Positions 2,899 through 28,149 of a stretch of DNA of 54,294 nt are shown piece by piece. Within the stretch, counting starts at the first letter, position 1. Each line of letters opens with the position of its first letter. The stretch spans positions 1-54,294 of the forward strand of contig JAHCKS010000029.1 in the NCBI GenBank assembly GCA_026125665.1, in the 5' to 3' direction. The notes under the pieces are model-generated. The model saw only the letters and a list, made by a program, of their open reading frames with translations, was not told the origin of the DNA and searched no databases. The translations under genes were made by a program, and so were the position numbers. The DNA is from Rubrivivax sp. GTDB lineage: Bacteria > Pseudomonadota > Gammaproteobacteria > Burkholderiales > Burkholderiaceae_C.

Positions 2899-4257
2899 AT
2901 GGGCGGATCGGCCGTTGCCGGCGCGGACGCCGCGACGCTGGTGCGGCGAGGCGGGCGCGACTGGCTGTCGCTGGCGTTGCTCGAAGCGCGCAACGAGCTG
3001 CTGGCGCGGCTGGCGGCGGCGGTGGCCGGTGCCGCGAAGGCAGGCGAGGCGGCGCACCAGGGCGCGGGCGGCGCAGCGGGCGATGCAGCGAGCGACGCTT
3101 CGTGCGTGATCGCGGCCCATGCATGCCTGGCGGCGCGGGCCGGCTGGTTCCACGAGTGGTGGATCGCTCGCCACGTGCAGCGGGCGCGCGGCGAAGCGGC
3201 CGACGAGCGGTCACCGCGGCTGCCCGGCATCGAGCCGCGCGCCGACGGCTGGGTGCGGCGCGCCGCGGCGGAGGACCTCGACGACATCCGCGCCTACCTC
3301 GGGCAGACGCTGGAGCAGACGCTGGACCTGCTCGGCCATGCCGACGACGACGCGCAGGGGCTCTACTTCTTCCGCCTGGCGCTGCAGCACGACGACCGCA
3401 TCGCCGAGCGGCTGGGCGATGCGCTGACGCCGCTGCTGCCGCCGCCGCGCGCGCAGCGCGAGCCGCTCGGCGTGCCGGCGCAGCGCTGGTGGCTTGGCAG
3501 CGCGGCCGAGGCCGGCGCCTTCGTGCCGCACGGCGAGCACTGGGCGCACGAGGTCGCGGTGCCCGAGTTCGAGATCGACGCGCAGTGCGTGAACTGGGCG
3601 CAGTTCGCCGAGTTCGCCGAGGACGGCGGCTACGACCGGCGCGACTGCTGGAGCGACGCCGGCTGGGCCTGGCTGCAGCGTGACGGCCGGCGCGCGCCGC
3701 GCGACGTGGAGCAGCTCGCCGGCAGCGTGCTCGTGGCGCGCGGCGGCCAGCTGCAGCGCGCGCCGTCGCAGCAGGCGGCGATGCACGTCACGCGGCACGA
3801 GGCCGAAGCGTGGTGCCGCTGGGCCGGCCGCCGCCTGCCGACCGAACCCGAGTGGGAGCTCGCCGCGCACGCGCTGGCGCGGCGCGGCTTCGTCTGGGGC
3901 GATGTGCTGGAGTGGGTGGCGGGCAGCGCCCGGCCGTACCCGGGTGCCGAGGCCCGCGTGCCGCCAGGCACGCTCGACCGGATCCTGCCGCCAGGCACGC
4001 TCGACCGGATCCTGCCGCCAGGCACGCCCGATCGGATCCTGCCGCCAGGCACGCCCGATCACACCTTGCCGGCGGGCACGGGCGAACGCGGTGTGCCGGC
4101 CGATCGCCCCGACGGCGGTACCGGCGGTGCGGCGATGGGCGTGCTGCGCGGCGGCACGTCGGCCACGCCGGCGCGCTGGCGGCACGCGAAGGCGCGCCGC
4201 TTCGCGCCGCCGCACGACGACGGGCAGCGAAACGGCTTTCGCAGCTGCGCGCTCTGA
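2899..4257 (+). CDS. EgtB/SUMF1-like protein with DinB_2-type domain and internal repeats
   Basis: 452 residues in the ergothioneine-synthase-like (EgtB/SenA/SUMF1) superfamily. The N-terminal four-helix DinB_2-like part (about 20-180) has WFHEW (His85) and LQHDDRIAE (His164...Glu170). EgtB-type iron sites use H-x3-H-x-E; here the second His is Arg167, so metal binding is doubtful. The FGE-sulfatase-like part (about 195-452) keeps the family signatures RRLPTEPEWELAA, VWGDVLEW and VLRGGTSAT and ends in NGFRSCAL. Between the last two signatures, residues 355-390 are four tandem copies of a 9-residue unit (PPGTLDRIL and variants), followed by decayed units. It starts 6 bp after the response regulator. 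A sulfoxide-synthase-like or purely structural role is possible; I would not assign EgtB function. Confidence 0.7.
   Translation: MGGSAVAGADAATLVRRGGRDWLSLALLEARNELLARLAAAVAGAAKAGEAAHQGAGGAAGDAASDASCVIAAHACLAARAGWFHEWWIARHVQRARGEAADERSPRLPGIEPRADGWVRRAAAEDLDDIRAYLGQTLEQTLDLLGHADDDAQGLYFFRLALQHDDRIAERLGDALTPLLPPPRAQREPLGVPAQRWWLGSAAEAGAFVPHGEHWAHEVAVPEFEIDAQCVNWAQFAEFAEDGGYDRRDCWSDAGWAWLQRDGRRAPRDVEQLAGSVLVARGGQLQRAPSQQAAMHVTRHEAEAWCRWAGRRLPTEPEWELAAHALARRGFVWGDVLEWVAGSARPYPGAEARVPPGTLDRILPPGTLDRILPPGTPDRILPPGTPDHTLPAGTGERGVPADRPDGGTGGAAMGVLRGGTSATPARWRHAKARRFAPPHDDGQRNGFRSCAL
3961..4068 (+). repeat. 27-bp in-frame minisatellite, four units
   Basis: Four consecutive 27-bp units (3961-3987, 3988-4014, 4015-4041, 4042-4068). 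The first two are identical, the third differs by two bases and the fourth by a few more. Decayed copies can be followed to about 4122. The period is a multiple of three, so the EgtB-like reading frame stays open and gains nine residues per unit. The array sits in the loop between the conserved EW and RGG motifs of the FGE-like domain. Confidence 0.95.
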
Positions 4258-22075: not shown

Positions 22076-23647
22076 TCAGGCGCGCAGCGGACCCACGTGC
22101 AGCGCGGCCAGCGCGATGGCGAGCCCGGCGATGAAGCCGAGCGCGGCCCAGATCAGGGCCTGCAGCATCCGGTTGGTGCGGCGCTGCTCGGCCAGCAGCT
22201 GCCGCAGCAGCTCGTGCTCGCCTTCCTCGGCTCGCCGGGCCAGGGCGCGGTGCACCAGGCGCGGCAGCCCCGGCAGCATCTGCGCGTAGCGCGGCGCCTC
22301 GTTGCGCAGCCGCTCCGCGAGGCCGCGCCAGCCCACCTGCTCGCTCATCCAGCGCTCGAGGAAGGGCTTGGCCGTGGTCCAGAGGTCCAGATCGGGGTCG
22401 AGCTGGCGACCCAGGCCCTCGATGTTGAGCAGCGTCTTCTGCAGCAGCACGAGCTGCGGCTGGATCTCGACGTTGAAGCGGCGCGAGATCTGGAACAGGC
22501 GCATCAGCACGTGCCCGAGCGAGATGTCCTTGAGCGGCCGCGCGAACTGCGGTTCGCACACGGTACGCACGGCGCCTTCGAGCTCGTCGACGCGCGTGGC
22601 CGCCGGCACCCAGCCGCTCTCGATGTGCAGCTCGGCCACGCGCCGGTAGTCGCGGCGGAAGAAGGCGATGAAGTTGTGCGCGAGGTAGTCCTTGTCGCGC
22701 TCGGTCAGCGTGCCCATGATGCCGAAGTCGAGCGCCACGTAGCGCCCGAACGTGGCCGGCACGGTGCTGACGAGGATGTTGCCCGGGTGCATGTCGGCGT
22801 GGAAGAAGCCGTCGCGGAACACCTGGGTGAAGAAGATCGTCACGCCGTCGCGCGCCAGCCGCTTCAGGTCCACGCGCGCCTCCCGCAGCTGCTCGACCTG
22901 GCCGATCGGCAGGCCGTGCATGCGCTCCATGACGATCACGTCGGTACGGCACAGGTCCCACACCATCTCGGGCACGAGCACGAGGCCCAGCCCCTCCATG
23001 TTGCGGCGCAGCTGCGTCGCGTTGGCCGCCTCGCGCACGAGGTCGAGCTCGTCGTGCAGGTAGGTGTCGAACTCGGCCACCACCTCGCGCGGCTTCAGCC
23101 GCCGGCCGTCGGCCGACAGGCGCTCGACCCACGCCGCGAGCTGGTGCAGCAGCGCCAGGTCGCTCTCGATGACGGCCAGCATGCCCGGGCGCAGGACCTT
23201 CACCGCCACCTCGCGGAAGCGCGGGCCGCTCTTCAGCGTGGCCAGGTGCACCTGGGCGATCGAGGCACTGGCCACGGGTTCGGGCTCGAACGACTCGAAG
23301 ATCTCCTCGATGCGCCGGCCGTAGGTCCTCTCGATGATGGCGCGTGCGGTGGCGGCGGCAAACGGCGGCACGCGGTCCTGCAGCTTGGCCAGCTCGTCGG
23401 CGACGTCCGGCGGCAGCAGGTCGCGGCGCGTCGAGAGCACCTGGCCGAACTTGACGAAGATGGGGCCGAGGCGCACGAGGCCCTCGCGCAGGCGCACGCC
23501 ACGCGGCGCATCAAGCCGCCGGCCGAGGCGGACGATGCGCACCAGTGCGCGCACCCACCGCTGCGGAAAGGCCGACAGCGCCACCTCGTCCAGGCCGAAG
23601 CGCAGGACGACGATGACGATGGTCAGCAGACGGGCGAGCCGCTTCAT
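22076..23647 (-). CDS. ubiB: UbiB ubiquinone-biosynthesis ATPase/kinase-like protein
   Basis: 523 residues, ABC1/ADCK family. It has the KxGQ motif in [16 protein letters not shown] (about 66-80), the Ala-rich nucleotide loop [14 protein letters not shown], the invariant Lys in [17 protein letters not shown], and the metal-binding Asp of ALDFGIMG. The C-terminus has two hydrophobic helices (about 495-520) that anchor it in the inner membrane. UbiB supports coenzyme Q synthesis through an ATPase activity that helps deliver lipid intermediates. Its start codon lies in the last unit of a 26-bp repeat array that separates it from ubiJ. Confidence 0.96.
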
Positions 23648-23747
23648 CGGCGCCCCGCGCCGCGGCGCTTCACCGGCGCCTCGTGCCGCGCCGCCTCACC
23701 GGCGCCTCGTGAGCCGCCGCGTCATCGGCGCCCCGCGCCGCGCCGCG
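23644..23747 (-). repeat. 26-bp tandem array forming a minigene chain at the ubiJ/ubiB junction
   Basis: Four units start at 23644, 23670, 23696 and 23722; the outer two share 21 identical bases and the inner two share 16. Reading leftwards, the ubiJ stop overlaps an ATG (23725) that opens a 9-codon frame ending at 23696. A GTG (23699) there opens a 9-codon frame ending at 23670. A GTG (23673) opens a 9-codon frame ending at 23644, and that stop overlaps the ubiB ATG (23647). Peptides are [18 protein letters not shown] and MKRRGAGRR, degenerate copies of the UbiB start MKRLAR. Each junction is a 4-bp overlap. Translation of the minigenes is inferred. Confidence 0.85.
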
Positions 23748-24528: not shown

Positions 24529-25551
24529 ATGCCCGCCACTGTCCTGCTCACCGGGGCCACCGGCTACATCGCCTCGCACACCTGGCTGGCCCTGCTGGCG
24601 GCGGGCCACCGCGTCGTCGGCGTCGACGACTTCTCCAACAGCTCGCCCGAGGTGCTGAATCGCCTGGCCGAGCTCTCGGGCCGGGCGCCGGCCTTCGAGC
24701 GGCTCGACGTGGGCGATGCCGCGGCGCTGGAGGCGTTGTTCGCGCGGCAGCGCATCGACGCCACGGTGCATTTCGCCGCCTTCAAGGCGGTGGGCGAATC
24801 GACCGCGAAACCGCTCGACTACTACGCCAACAACCTGGGCGGCCTCGTCAACGTCTGCCGCACGATGCGCCGGCACGGCGTCGCGCGCTTCGTCTTCAGC
24901 TCCAGCGCCACCGTCTACGGTGATCCGCAGCGCCTGCCCATCACCGAGGACATGCCGCTTTCGGCCACGAACCCCTATGGCCGCACGAAGCTGATGGGCG
25001 AACAGGTCATCGGCGACCTGGCCCACGCCGAGCGAACCTGGCAGAACGCCATCCTGCGCTACTTCAACCCGGTGGGCGCACACGAGAGTGGCCGCATCGG
25101 CGAAGACCCGCGCGGCACGCCGAACAACCTGATGCCCTACGTGGCACAGGTGGCCGTCGGGCGGCGCGCGCATCTCAACGTGTTCGGCAACGACTACCCG
25201 ACGCCCGACGGTACTGGCGTGCGCGACTACATCCACGTCGTCGACCTGGCCGAGGGCCACGTGGCGGCGCTCGAGCGGCTGCTGGCGCAGCCCGGCTCGT
25301 TCACGGTGAACCTCGGCACGGGCCGCGGTGCCAGCGTGCTCGAAGTGGTGCGCGCCTACGAGGCGGCGAGCGGCCGCCCGGTGCCCTACCGCATCGAGCC
25401 GCGCCGCCCCGGCGACGTGGCTGCCTGCTGGGCCGACCCGACGCTGGCGCAGGAGCTGCTCGGCTGGCGCGCCCGCCACGACCTGCATCGCATGTGCGCC
25501 GACAGCTGGCGCTGGCAGCAACACAATCCCAGGGGATACGACAACGCATGA
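24529..25551 (+). CDS. galE: UDP-glucose 4-epimerase
   Basis: 340 residues, extended SDR. The NAD motif LLTGATGYIASH is at 5-16; the active-site Ser/Thr is in FSSSATVYG and Tyr-x3-Lys is in NPYGRTK. GalE signatures include YFNPVGAHESGRIGEDP, NNLMPYVAQVAVG and DGTGVRDYIHVVDLA. It interconverts UDP-glucose and UDP-galactose for surface polysaccharides. It opens the nucleotide-sugar operon and its stop overlaps manC by 4 bp. The 177-bp gap before it, divergent from ubiJ, holds no convincing promoter match and no Shine-Dalgarno. Confidence 0.96.
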   Translation: MPATVLLTGATGYIASHTWLALLAAGHRVVGVDDFSNSSPEVLNRLAELSGRAPAFERLDVGDAAALEALFARQRIDATVHFAAFKAVGESTAKPLDYYANNLGGLVNVCRTMRRHGVARFVFSSSATVYGDPQRLPITEDMPLSATNPYGRTKLMGEQVIGDLAHAERTWQNAILRYFNPVGAHESGRIGEDPRGTPNNLMPYVAQVAVGRRAHLNVFGNDYPTPDGTGVRDYIHVVDLAEGHVAALERLLAQPGSFTVNLGTGRGASVLEVVRAYEAASGRPVPYRIEPRRPGDVAACWADPTLAQELLGWRARHDLHRMCADSWRWQQHNPRGYDNA

Positions 25552-27017
25552 GCACTTCGTCGAACAAGGCGGCCGCGGCGGCCGCGATCCAGGTGGTGCC
25601 GGTCGTGATGGCCGGCGGCTCGGGCACACGCCTGTGGCCGCTGTCGCGTGCCGGCTTCCCCAAGCAGTTCCTCGTGCTCGGCGGCAACGGCTCGAGCCTG
25701 TTCCAGCAGGCCGTGGCGCGCCTGCAGGGGCTGGCGGACGACCGCATCGAGGTCGGCGCGCCGCTCGTCGTCGGCAACGAGGAACACCGTTTCCTCGTGC
25801 TCGACCAGCTGCGCGAGCTTCAACGCGAGCCGGCCGCGGTGCTGCTGGAGCCGACGGGGCGCAACACGGCGCCGGCCCTGACGCTCGCGGCGCTGCAGGC
25901 CGCCGAGGGGGGCGGCGATCCCGTGCTCGTCGTCACGCCGGCCGACCAGACGGTGACCGACGACACCGCCTTCGCCGTCGCGGTGCGCCGCGCCGTGCAC
26001 CAGGCCGCCGACGGCGCCATCGCCATCCTCGGCGTCAAGCCGACGCGGCCCGAGACCGGCTACGGCTACATCCGTACCGATGGCGTGGCGCCGGAGCTGC
26101 GCGTCGTCCGCTTCGTCGAGAAGCCCGACGCCGAGACCGCGCAGCGCTACATCGAGGCCGGCGGCTACTCGTGGAACGCCGGCATGTTCGTGCTGAAGGC
26201 CTCGGTCTGGATGGCGGCGCTCGAGCGCTTCCGGCCCGACATCGCCGCCGCCTGCCGCGCCGCGTTCGCGGCGCGCGCCACCGACGAGAAGTTCGTGCGC
26301 CCCGGCAAGGCCGAGTTCGCCGCGGTGCCCTCGGAGTCGGTGGACTATGCGGTGATGGAGAAGTGCCCCGGCGTGCTCGACATCCGCATGCAGGAGCTCG
26401 ACGCCGGTTGGAGCGACCTGGGCGCCTGGGACGCCGTGTGGCAGGTGCTGCCCAAGGACGGCGACGGCAACGCCACGGTGGGCGACGCGCTGGTCGCCGA
26501 CAGCCACAACACGCTGGTGCATGCGACGAGCCGGCTGGTGAGCGTGGTCGGTCTCGACGACGCGGTGGTCGTCGAGACGCCCGACGCCGTGCTCGTGGCC
26601 AGCCGCGAGAAGAGCCAGCACGTCAAGACCATCGTCGCGCGGCTGGGCCAGGAACAGCGCGGCGAGCAGACGCTGCATCGCAAGGTGCACCGCCCCTGGG
26701 GCTGGTACGACAGCATCGACCATGGGCCGCGCCACCAGGTCAAGCGCATCCTGGTCAAGCCGGGCGCGGCCCTTTCTCTGCAGATGCACCATCACCGCGC
26801 CGAGCACTGGATCGTCGTCTCCGGCACGGCCGAGGTGACGAACGGCGACAAGGTGATCATGCTCACCGAGAACCAGAGCACCTACATCCCGCTCGGCGAG
26901 AAACATCGGCTGCGCAACCCGGGCAAGGTGCCGCTCGAGATCATCGAGGTGCAGTCGGGCAGCTACCTGGGCGAGGACGACATCGTCCGTTTCGAGGATA
27001 CCTACGGACGGAGATAG
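25548..27017 (+). CDS. manC: Mannose-1-phosphate guanylyltransferase / mannose-6-phosphate isomerase
   Basis: 489 residues, the bifunctional type II ManC/AlgA architecture. The N-terminal nucleotidyltransferase domain has MAGGSGTRLWPLSR at 25-38 and FVEKPD near 190. The C-terminal cupin isomerase (about 370-485) has PGAALSLQMHHHRAEHW and STYIPLGEKHRL. It makes GDP-mannose from fructose-6-phosphate with a phosphomannomutase that is not in this window. The start at 25548 overlaps the galE stop (ATGA). Downstream, 12 bp after the stop, the 29-bp repeat chain leading to rfbB begins. Confidence 0.96.
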   Translation: MSTSSNKAAAAAAIQVVPVVMAGGSGTRLWPLSRAGFPKQFLVLGGNGSSLFQQAVARLQGLADDRIEVGAPLVVGNEEHRFLVLDQLRELQREPAAVLLEPTGRNTAPALTLAALQAAEGGGDPVLVVTPADQTVTDDTAFAVAVRRAVHQAADGAIAILGVKPTRPETGYGYIRTDGVAPELRVVRFVEKPDAETAQRYIEAGGYSWNAGMFVLKASVWMAALERFRPDIAAACRAAFAARATDEKFVRPGKAEFAAVPSESVDYAVMEKCPGVLDIRMQELDAGWSDLGAWDAVWQVLPKDGDGNATVGDALVADSHNTLVHATSRLVSVVGLDDAVVVETPDAVLVASREKSQHVKTIVARLGQEQRGEQTLHRKVHRPWGWYDSIDHGPRHQVKRILVKPGAALSLQMHHHRAEHWIVVSGTAEVTNGDKVIMLTENQSTYIPLGEKHRLRNPGKVPLEIIEVQSGSYLGEDDIVRFEDTYGRR

Positions 27018-27029
27018 AGTTCCGCCCTC

Positions 27030-27116
27030 ATGACCCTCCTCGTCAAGGAGCAGCAGCCGTGACGATTCTCGTCAAGGGCCCACAGCCGTGACGATCCTCG
27101 TCACGGGGGGCGCCGG
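27030..27116 (+). repeat. 29-bp tandem triplication of the rfbB initiation region, with two minigenes
   Basis: Units start at 27030, 27059 and 27088, the last being the rfbB start itself. Unit 1 encodes [10 protein letters not shown] and stops at 27060-27062. Unit 2 (GTG at 27059) encodes [10 protein letters not shown] and stops at 27089-27091. RfbB then begins MTILVTGG at the GTG 27088. Every stop overlaps the next start by 4 bp (GTGA). AAGGAG in unit 1 (27045-27050) and AAGGGC in unit 2 (27074-27079) lie 8 nt before the following start, so the minigenes carry the ribosome sites. Units 1 and 2 match at 21 of 29 positions; units 2 and 3 match at 18 of the first 20. Confidence 0.88.
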
Positions 27117-28149
27117 CTTCATCGGCAGCAACTTCGTGCTCGACTGGTTCGAGCACGCCGGCGAGCCGGTCGTCAACCTCGACGCGCTGACCTACGCCGG
27201 CAACCTGCGCAACCTGGCTTCGCTCGCCGGCGACGCGCGGCACGTGTTCGTGCGCGGCGACATCGGCGATCGCCCTCTCGTCGACCGCCTGCTCGCCGAG
27301 CATCGCCCGCGCGCCATCGTCAACTTCGCCGCCGAGAGCCACGTCGACCGCAGCATCCTCGGGCCGGCCGCGTTCATCAAGACCAACGTCGAGGGCACCT
27401 TCACGCTGCTGGAGGCGGCGCGCGTGTTCGTGCAGGCGCTGGAGCTCGCCGAGCGCGAGCGCTTCCGCTTCCTGCACGTCAGCACCGACGAGGTCTACGG
27501 CAGCCTGGCGCCCGGCGCGCCGGCCTTCACCGAGGCGCATCCTTTCGAGCCGAACAGCCCCTACTCGGCGAGCAAGGCGGCCAGCGACCACCTCGTGCGT
27601 GCCTGGCACCACACCTACGGCCTGCCGGTGCTGACGACGAACTGCAGCAACAACTACGGGCCGTACCACTTCCCGGAGAAGCTCATCCCGCTCGTGATCG
27701 TCAACGCGCTGGCCGGCAAGCCGCTGCCGGTGTACGGCGACGGCCTGCAGGTGCGCGACTGGCTCTACGTGCGCGACCACTGCTCGGCCATCCGCACGGT
27801 GCTCGCGAAGGGCCGCCCCGGCGAGACCTACAACGTCGGCGGCTGGAACGAGAAGCCGAACATCGAGATCGTCAAGACGGTCTGCGCTCTGCTCGACGAG
27901 ATGCGGCCCGACCCTGCCGGAGCGCGCTCGCGCCTCATCACGCACGTGAAGGACCGCCCGGGGCACGACCGCCGCTACGCCATCGACGCGCGCAAGATCG
28001 AGCGCGAGCTCGGCTGGCGCCCGGCCGAGACCTTCGAGACCGGCATCCGCAAGACGGTGCGCTGGTACCTCGACCATGCCGACTGGGTGCACGAGGTGCA
28101 AAGCGGCGCCTACCGCGACTGGGTGGCGGCCAACTACGTCGCACGCTGA
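27088..28149 (+). CDS. rfbB: dTDP-glucose 4,6-dehydratase
   Basis: 353 residues. The NAD motif [11 protein letters not shown] is at 6-16. The catalytic triplet Thr-Asp-Glu is in VSTDEVYG and Tyr-x3-Lys is in [10 protein letters not shown]. RfbB signatures [15 protein letters not shown] and YVRDHC are present. It converts dTDP-glucose to the 4-keto-6-deoxy sugar, step two of dTDP-L-rhamnose synthesis. The GTG at 27088 is set by the N-terminal strand MTILVTGG and by AAGGGC 8 nt upstream, which lies in the second copy of the 29-bp repeat. rfbD starts 6 bp after its stop. Confidence 0.97.

Follow-up and report, generated by a model that had tools for sequence, protein, structure and literature searches.

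Translational coupling is well established at junctions where a stop codon and the following start codon overlap by 4 nt (PMC6728339; PMC12548453), and termination-reinitiation at ATGA overlaps gave strict coupling in 13 of the 14 gene pairs tested (PMC6728339). There are also short ORFs, both natural and designed, through which ribosomes reach a gene (PMC12548453; PMC13255528; PMC5574718). The mycobacterial interspersed repetitive units (MIRUs) are repeats located at start codons, whose ORF is coupled to the next gene at -4 nt (PMC12548453); they measure 77 and 53 bp, and their tandem copies differ between strains (PMC4213456). By our own arithmetic, both sizes are 2 modulo 3. In Escherichia coli, iraD is translationally coupled to a short upstream ORF, described as the route of its repression by CsrA (PMC5574718), and the natural two-codon minigene of axe-txe raises, in cis, the expression of the next gene (PMC8708949). 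Among engineered systems, bicistronic designs and short 'nonsense' ORF boosters are reported to increase expression by up to about 20-fold (PMC13255528; PMC5995908; PMC10367133); such booster ORFs need a start, a stop and an internal ribosome site (PMC13255528).

The mini-gene chain between manC and rfbB

The window analysed here is a stretch of 54,294 nt that forms an entire contig (G000:C190) of a draft genome of 6.28 Mb in 268 contigs. Its plus strand carries galE, manC, rfbB, rfbD, rfbA and rfbC in this order (names from NCBIfam), the manC start, from a script-based gene call, lying 4 nt inside the end of galE. A sequence-only reading of this DNA had described two ten-codon mini-genes ahead of rfbB, and the description stands: the three successive starts (ATG 27030, GTG 27059 and GTG 27088) follow one another in 29-nt steps, the TGA of each mini-gene sits within the GTGA of the next start (27059 and 27088), and the peptides given for both mini-genes are correct. 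AAGGAG and AAGGGC each lie 8 nt before the next start, so that the ribosome site of rfbB is located within mini-gene 2, as had been proposed. The chain combines the 4-nt stop-start overlap of ATGA-type coupled ORFs with a feature of bicistronic designs, namely a ribosome site (AAGGGC, and likewise AAGGAG) placed inside the leader ORF. The first mini-gene begins 12 nt after the manC stop (TAG, 27015-27017) and has no clear ribosome site within 17 nt.

The same reading took the chain for a triplication of the rfbB start, which has to be refined. TRF reports a tandem array at 27037-27103 (period 29, 2.3 copies, 84% matches), and the identity between the units and rfbB is confined to approximately the first 16 nt of the unit, the remaining 13 nt of its 29 corresponding to the ribosome site and spacer. 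On the reading favoured below, the duplicated piece comprises the rfbB ribosome site, the start codon and the first five codons. Units 1 and 2 of the window differ at 8 of 29 positions and are therefore not fresh copies. Elsewhere in the window, a 27-nt tandem array of about 4.5 copies (3959-4080, plus strand) lies in frame inside an ORF (2899-4257) and encodes a repeated LPPGTPDRI-like motif.

Table 1. Coordinates of the features discussed, in window positions.
Feature	Position	Strand	Basis
manC (mannose-1-phosphate guanylyltransferase / mannose-6-phosphate isomerase)	25548..27017	+	TIGR01479, E 1.3e-189
Mini-gene 1, ten codons, ATG start	27030..27062	+	Sequence; TGA 27060-27062 overlaps mini-gene 2 start
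AAGGAG inside mini-gene 1, 8 nt before start 27059	27045..27050	+	Sequence
Mini-gene 2, ten codons, GTG start	27059..27091	+	Sequence; TGA 27089-27091 overlaps rfbB start
AAGGGC inside mini-gene 2, 8 nt before rfbB start	27074..27079	+	Sequence
Start hairpin CCGTGACGA-TCC-TCGTCACGG	27086..27106	+	Predicted: 9-bp stem, 3-nt loop, rfbB start codon in 5' arm
rfbB (dTDP-glucose 4,6-dehydratase), GTG start	27088..28149	+	TIGR01181, E 2.6e-149
ubiB chain: three mini-genes, 26-nt steps, starts 23725, 23699, 23673	23644..23725	-	Sequence

Distribution of the unit and the predicted hairpin over the rfbB start

A duplicated rfbB start was found in six of the 81 genomes of the genus (G000, which is that of the window, G014, G017, G022, G030 and G058) with a pattern whose fixed letters would miss strongly changed units. 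The period is 29 in all six, though the pattern allowed 21 to 51, and this recurrence with one period makes the chain more than a chance event. The copy number ranges from one to four: G014, G017, G030 and G058 each carry a single 29-nt unit, whereas G022 has three, preceded by an altered first unit of 30 nt. The manC-rfbB junction itself could be read in 58 of the 81 genomes; its commonest state is the direct overlap, with a gap of -4 (24/58), and spacers in other species run from -4 to 226 nt. G014, G030 and G058 have a gap of 25 (-4 + 29), so manC, the mini-gene and rfbB form a single continuous chain of overlaps. In G022, as in the window, the first start comes 12 nt after the manC stop.

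Beyond the genus, a search of 399 family genomes (141 genera, six genomes being of this genus) for a near-identical pattern matched only the genome of the window. Among public rfbB loci, 68 of 80 of which were readable with our motif, the start is repeated only in L072, the record of G022 (L072 and L073 represent species of this genus that had already been counted). The tail of the unit was found once each in four of the 81 genus genomes, always at rfbB, and in none of the 399 sampled family genomes outside the genus. The unit being confined to rfbB in both sets, a mobile element was rejected.

In a tree of 57 species built on manC and rfbB with the trait columns excluded, the six carriers do not form one clade: five changes are needed, four of them forced by well-supported branches. 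Yet near-identical units occur in different clades. Compared with unit 1 of the window, the G030/G058 unit has 2 differences over the 29 positions and that of G014 has 5, while 25-29% of the rfbB third codon positions differ between the window and G030/G058 (the counts for G017 and G022 were out of register and were left aside). Judging from these sequences, the unit may be old and have been lost many times, may have been transferred, or may have arisen repeatedly with convergence. A route for loss is at hand, as one deletion between direct repeats restores the overlap.

What is new at this locus is that the rfbB start codon of the six unit-bearing species lies in a predicted hairpin that most other species avoid. 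For the window, the folding energy predicted for positions -3 to +21 is -14.9 kcal/mol. Over the same interval in 58 species, the mean is -10.3 kcal/mol for the six species with units and -3.0 for the 52 others, and the six account for six of the eight strongest hairpins; with bases +1 to +18 only, they take ranks 1 to 6. All eight fold windows that we tried point in the same direction, the widest being the least clear, with uncorrected p values from 4e-5 to 0.011 that are too small because the species are related. A further interval, -35 to +35, also separated the six species; it includes the repeats and was not used. On the tree, there are four independent pairs on supported branches, of which three or four, depending on the cut-off and pairing, go in the expected direction and none in the opposite one; a sign test on these approximately four contrasts reaches 0.125 at best.

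We also compared each start with random synonymous codings drawn from the pooled codon usage. The 52 other species have a mean z of +0.89, only 7 of them folding more strongly than expected, and hence avoid structure at the start, whereas all six unit-bearing species fold more strongly than expected (z of -1.36). The z-score for +1 to +18 is undefined among the others and was not used. Of the random synonymous codings of the window's rfbB start, 9% fold equally strongly or more. Moreover, one stem pair links two synonymous positions, the third base of codon 2 and that of codon 4. Among the 54 species counted, the two bases are complementary in all six with units (four with G-C, two with C-G) and in 3 of the 48 without, against about 12 expected for independent bases. 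Among the others, the 27 starts coupled to manC avoid structure slightly less than the 25 uncoupled ones (z of 0.69 versus 1.09, p of 0.048), and four species have a strong hairpin (-7 or below) without a mini-gene, three of them being directly coupled to manC. Finally, the start of the first mini-gene is predicted to fold less than that of rfbB in all six species over -3 to +21, but in only four of six over +1 to +18.

Duplicated starts at other genes and the 2-modulo-3 class

The sequence-only reading had also pointed to a similar chain between ubiJ and ubiB and had suggested a recurrent way of building relays at gene junctions. The ubiB chain is real: on the minus strand, its 26-nt steps span the junction between the stop of ubiJ and the start of ubiB at 23647 (ubiB by NF003404, E 1.3e-248; the upstream gene has no NCBIfam hit, and ubiJ is the name given by that reading). 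We read the ubiB locus in 29 of 30 cases in one set and in 61 of 66 species in another, at least one of which (G080) is probably misplaced. The ubiB start is duplicated by 11 nt in G017 (three units), G044 (two) and G023 (one), a 26-nt mini-gene is present in G057 and G071, and G019 has a bare overlap; the chains of the relatives are those of loci L240, L242, L244, L261 and L282. Between close relatives the number of ubiB units thus varies from 0 to 3. A link between mini-genes and start hairpins was not supported at ubiB in four of five fold windows, over 59 starts. The ubiB start of G022 (L243) is immediately preceded by a 21-nt repeat, of the 0-modulo-3 class, which apparently lies inside the frame of the upstream gene. 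A third gene is concerned in L076, from a MAG titled Rhizobacter sp., where the rfbB-rfbD junction is duplicated by 35 nt (2991-3029), yielding a mini-gene, MSILQYGAEGKA, that keeps the stop-start overlap on either side, with rfbB and with rfbD.

The recurrence is therefore borne out, at rfbB (29 nt), ubiB (26 and 11 nt) and rfbD (35 nt), all of which are 2 modulo 3. That an ATGA/GTGA chain requires this class of period holds by arithmetic. An enrichment of the class had been put forward as the check to make, and our scan goes in this direction: at 75% identity, eight of the 2307 called gene starts have an upstream copy with a start codon, all 2 modulo 3. However, these eight matches represent only about five events, one of which (L206, period 50, without an overlapping stop) is probably due to chance. 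This count is a lower bound, because the scan missed known cases within the scanned set, at rfbB in L072, G030 and G058 and at ubiB in G071. At 65% identity, 38 of the 2307 starts match, 23 of them 2 modulo 3, a result that we did not use because, by our reasoning, the codon phase of genes overlapping by 4 nt biases weak matches towards 2 modulo 3 through chance alone. The scan result does favour the 2-modulo-3 class, but it can be accounted for with no benefit at all if duplications of the other classes are filtered out. With so few events, a purifying filter that predicts the same class and the codon-phase bias, selection for relays is only plausible.

Frequent duplication of starts throughout the genome was not found. 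Among 932 called starts from 1.23 Mb of the 6.28 Mb genome, only the two chains of the window and L206 match, and none of 321 starts does in 400 kb of G004 at 75% identity. The same sample of the window's genome (1.23 Mb in 61 stretches) contains 647 pairs of co-directional neighbours, 85 of which have a 4-nt overlap; junctions able to host chains are thus common, and chains are seen at few of them.

A putative relay, its alternatives and the described systems

We lean, by a modest degree, towards reading the rfbB chain as a translational relay that arose by duplication of the gene's own start, in which the ribosome on the mini-gene opens the start hairpin. Duplication of the rfbB translation start in 29-nt steps would have created short ORFs whose stops overlap the next start. 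A ribosome coming from manC, or entering at the first mini-gene, would translate ten codons, terminate at a TGA lying across the next start and begin again at that start. The footprint of a terminating ribosome covers nearby mRNA structure. On the last mini-gene, we infer, it would cover and so open the rfbB hairpin, which would otherwise hide the start codon from direct entry, and the ribosome or its small subunit would restart on the overlapping GTG with AAGGGC as a guide. Translation of rfbB would in this way depend on translation upstream, as in a natural bicistronic design, and the chain may have been retained for this reason. In favour of this reading are the invariant period of 29, the unbroken overlap chain of G014, G030 and G058, and the association of the units with start hairpins, including the complementary third bases of codons 2 and 4. 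Against it count the small number of independent contrasts, the 9% of synonymous codings that fold as strongly as the window's start, the four species with a strong hairpin but no mini-gene, the lack of a clear ribosome site ahead of the window's first mini-gene, the first start being more open in just four of six species over +1 to +18, and the hairpin link that ubiB does not show in four of five fold windows.

More tentatively, a bacterial gene start could become relay-dependent through tandem copies of itself. A junction duplication of 3k+2 nt makes a mini-gene, which may lift selection against a start hairpin or even select for one; relay and hairpin would then co-evolve and slippage could tune the number of steps, as may have happened repeatedly in Burkholderiales, at rfbB, ubiB and rfbD.

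A competing explanation, which we hold to be somewhat unlikely, combines mutation with a filter: the palindrome at the start, or plain slippage, would provoke duplications of which only those of 2 modulo 3 survive, the mini-genes being tolerated passengers. Since no other class leaves both proteins and the coupling intact, the 2-modulo-3 periods can be accounted for without invoking a benefit. The 16 rfbB-derived nucleotides of the unit finish where the stem finishes, the copy number is as variable as in a slipping repeat (1 to 4 at rfbB, 0 to 3 at ubiB), and the ubiB chains exist without a hairpin link. On the other hand, the match of unit 1 to the G030/G058 unit at 27 of 29 positions, despite the divergence of rfbB third positions, is unexpected for an idle passenger unless recently transferred, and the presence of the hairpin needs a reason, because the codon choice of other species avoids it.

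It is quite improbable that a protein binds the DNA at the palindrome TGACGA-N3-TCGTCA and that the array consists of operator copies. The palindrome does recur in 29-bp steps in several units, but its arms vary by species (TGACG/CGTCA, TGACC/GGTCA), the full palindrome is missing from two of the entry units, those of the window and of G030/G058, and, by our reasoning, a 29-bp spacing does not correspond to an integral number of helical turns. Slightly less probable still are attenuator or stalling peptides: ten-codon leader ORFs do precede a biosynthetic gene and their peptides share the form MT(I/L)LVK..., yet beyond the copied start the tails vary by species (EQQP, GPQP, EQHR, RSQP, TERP), and neither a conserved tail nor a regulatory run of a single codon was found. 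An assembly artefact, conceivable for one of 268 contigs of a draft genome, or a wrong rfbB start is hardly credible, the former being contradicted by the relatives, with period 29 at the same junction in six genomes, one also in a public record (L072/G022), and the latter by the match of rfbB to its family from residue 3.

If the relay reading is right, it suggests a natural and evolvable route to the short-leader coupling that synthetic biology builds by hand. Further cases can be sought with a simple rule, which is to look, wherever a stop and a start overlap, for periods of 2 modulo 3. Moreover, the pairing of mini-gene and start hairpin makes it testable across species whether coupling relieves selection against structure at starts.

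Compared with the described systems, we file the rfbB chain under translational coupling through short upstream ORFs and not as a MIRU. It shares the 4-nt overlap of stop and start codons with the ATGA-coupled pairs (PMC6728339), in which, however, both partners are ordinary genes, whereas rfbB is preceded by inserted ten-codon ORFs that derive from its own start. Like bicistronic designs, it has a short ORF whose stop adjoins the real start and is closely preceded by an internal ribosome site; those designs, as the cited accounts present them, are synthetic, made in E. coli, with differing stop-start distances, and involve neither duplication nor a link to a natural start hairpin. At rfbB, a predicted start hairpin, which translation of the leader may open, accompanies the mini-gene across species. 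With iraD it shares a natural short ORF ahead of a gene, the coupling being putative for rfbB, and a duplicated start goes unmentioned in the account of iraD drawn on here (PMC5574718). The axe-txe minigene also stands naturally before a gene, but it has two codons, is proposed to act through mRNA stability and is not described as a copy of the gene start (PMC8708949). None of the papers retrieved from the open-licence literature reports, in its title or abstract, a gene start duplicated in tandem to give a chain of mini-genes. The nearest natural case is that of the MIRUs, as far as their cited descriptions go: the rfbB unit likewise carries an ORF, putatively coupled, at -4 nt from the next start and has a period, 29, of 2 modulo 3. 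MIRUs are apparently mobile and occupy many loci, whereas the rfbB unit is not interspersed. What sets the rfbB chain apart is thus that its unit derives from the start of the very gene it precedes, that it has been found at a single locus and that it is accompanied by a predicted start hairpin.
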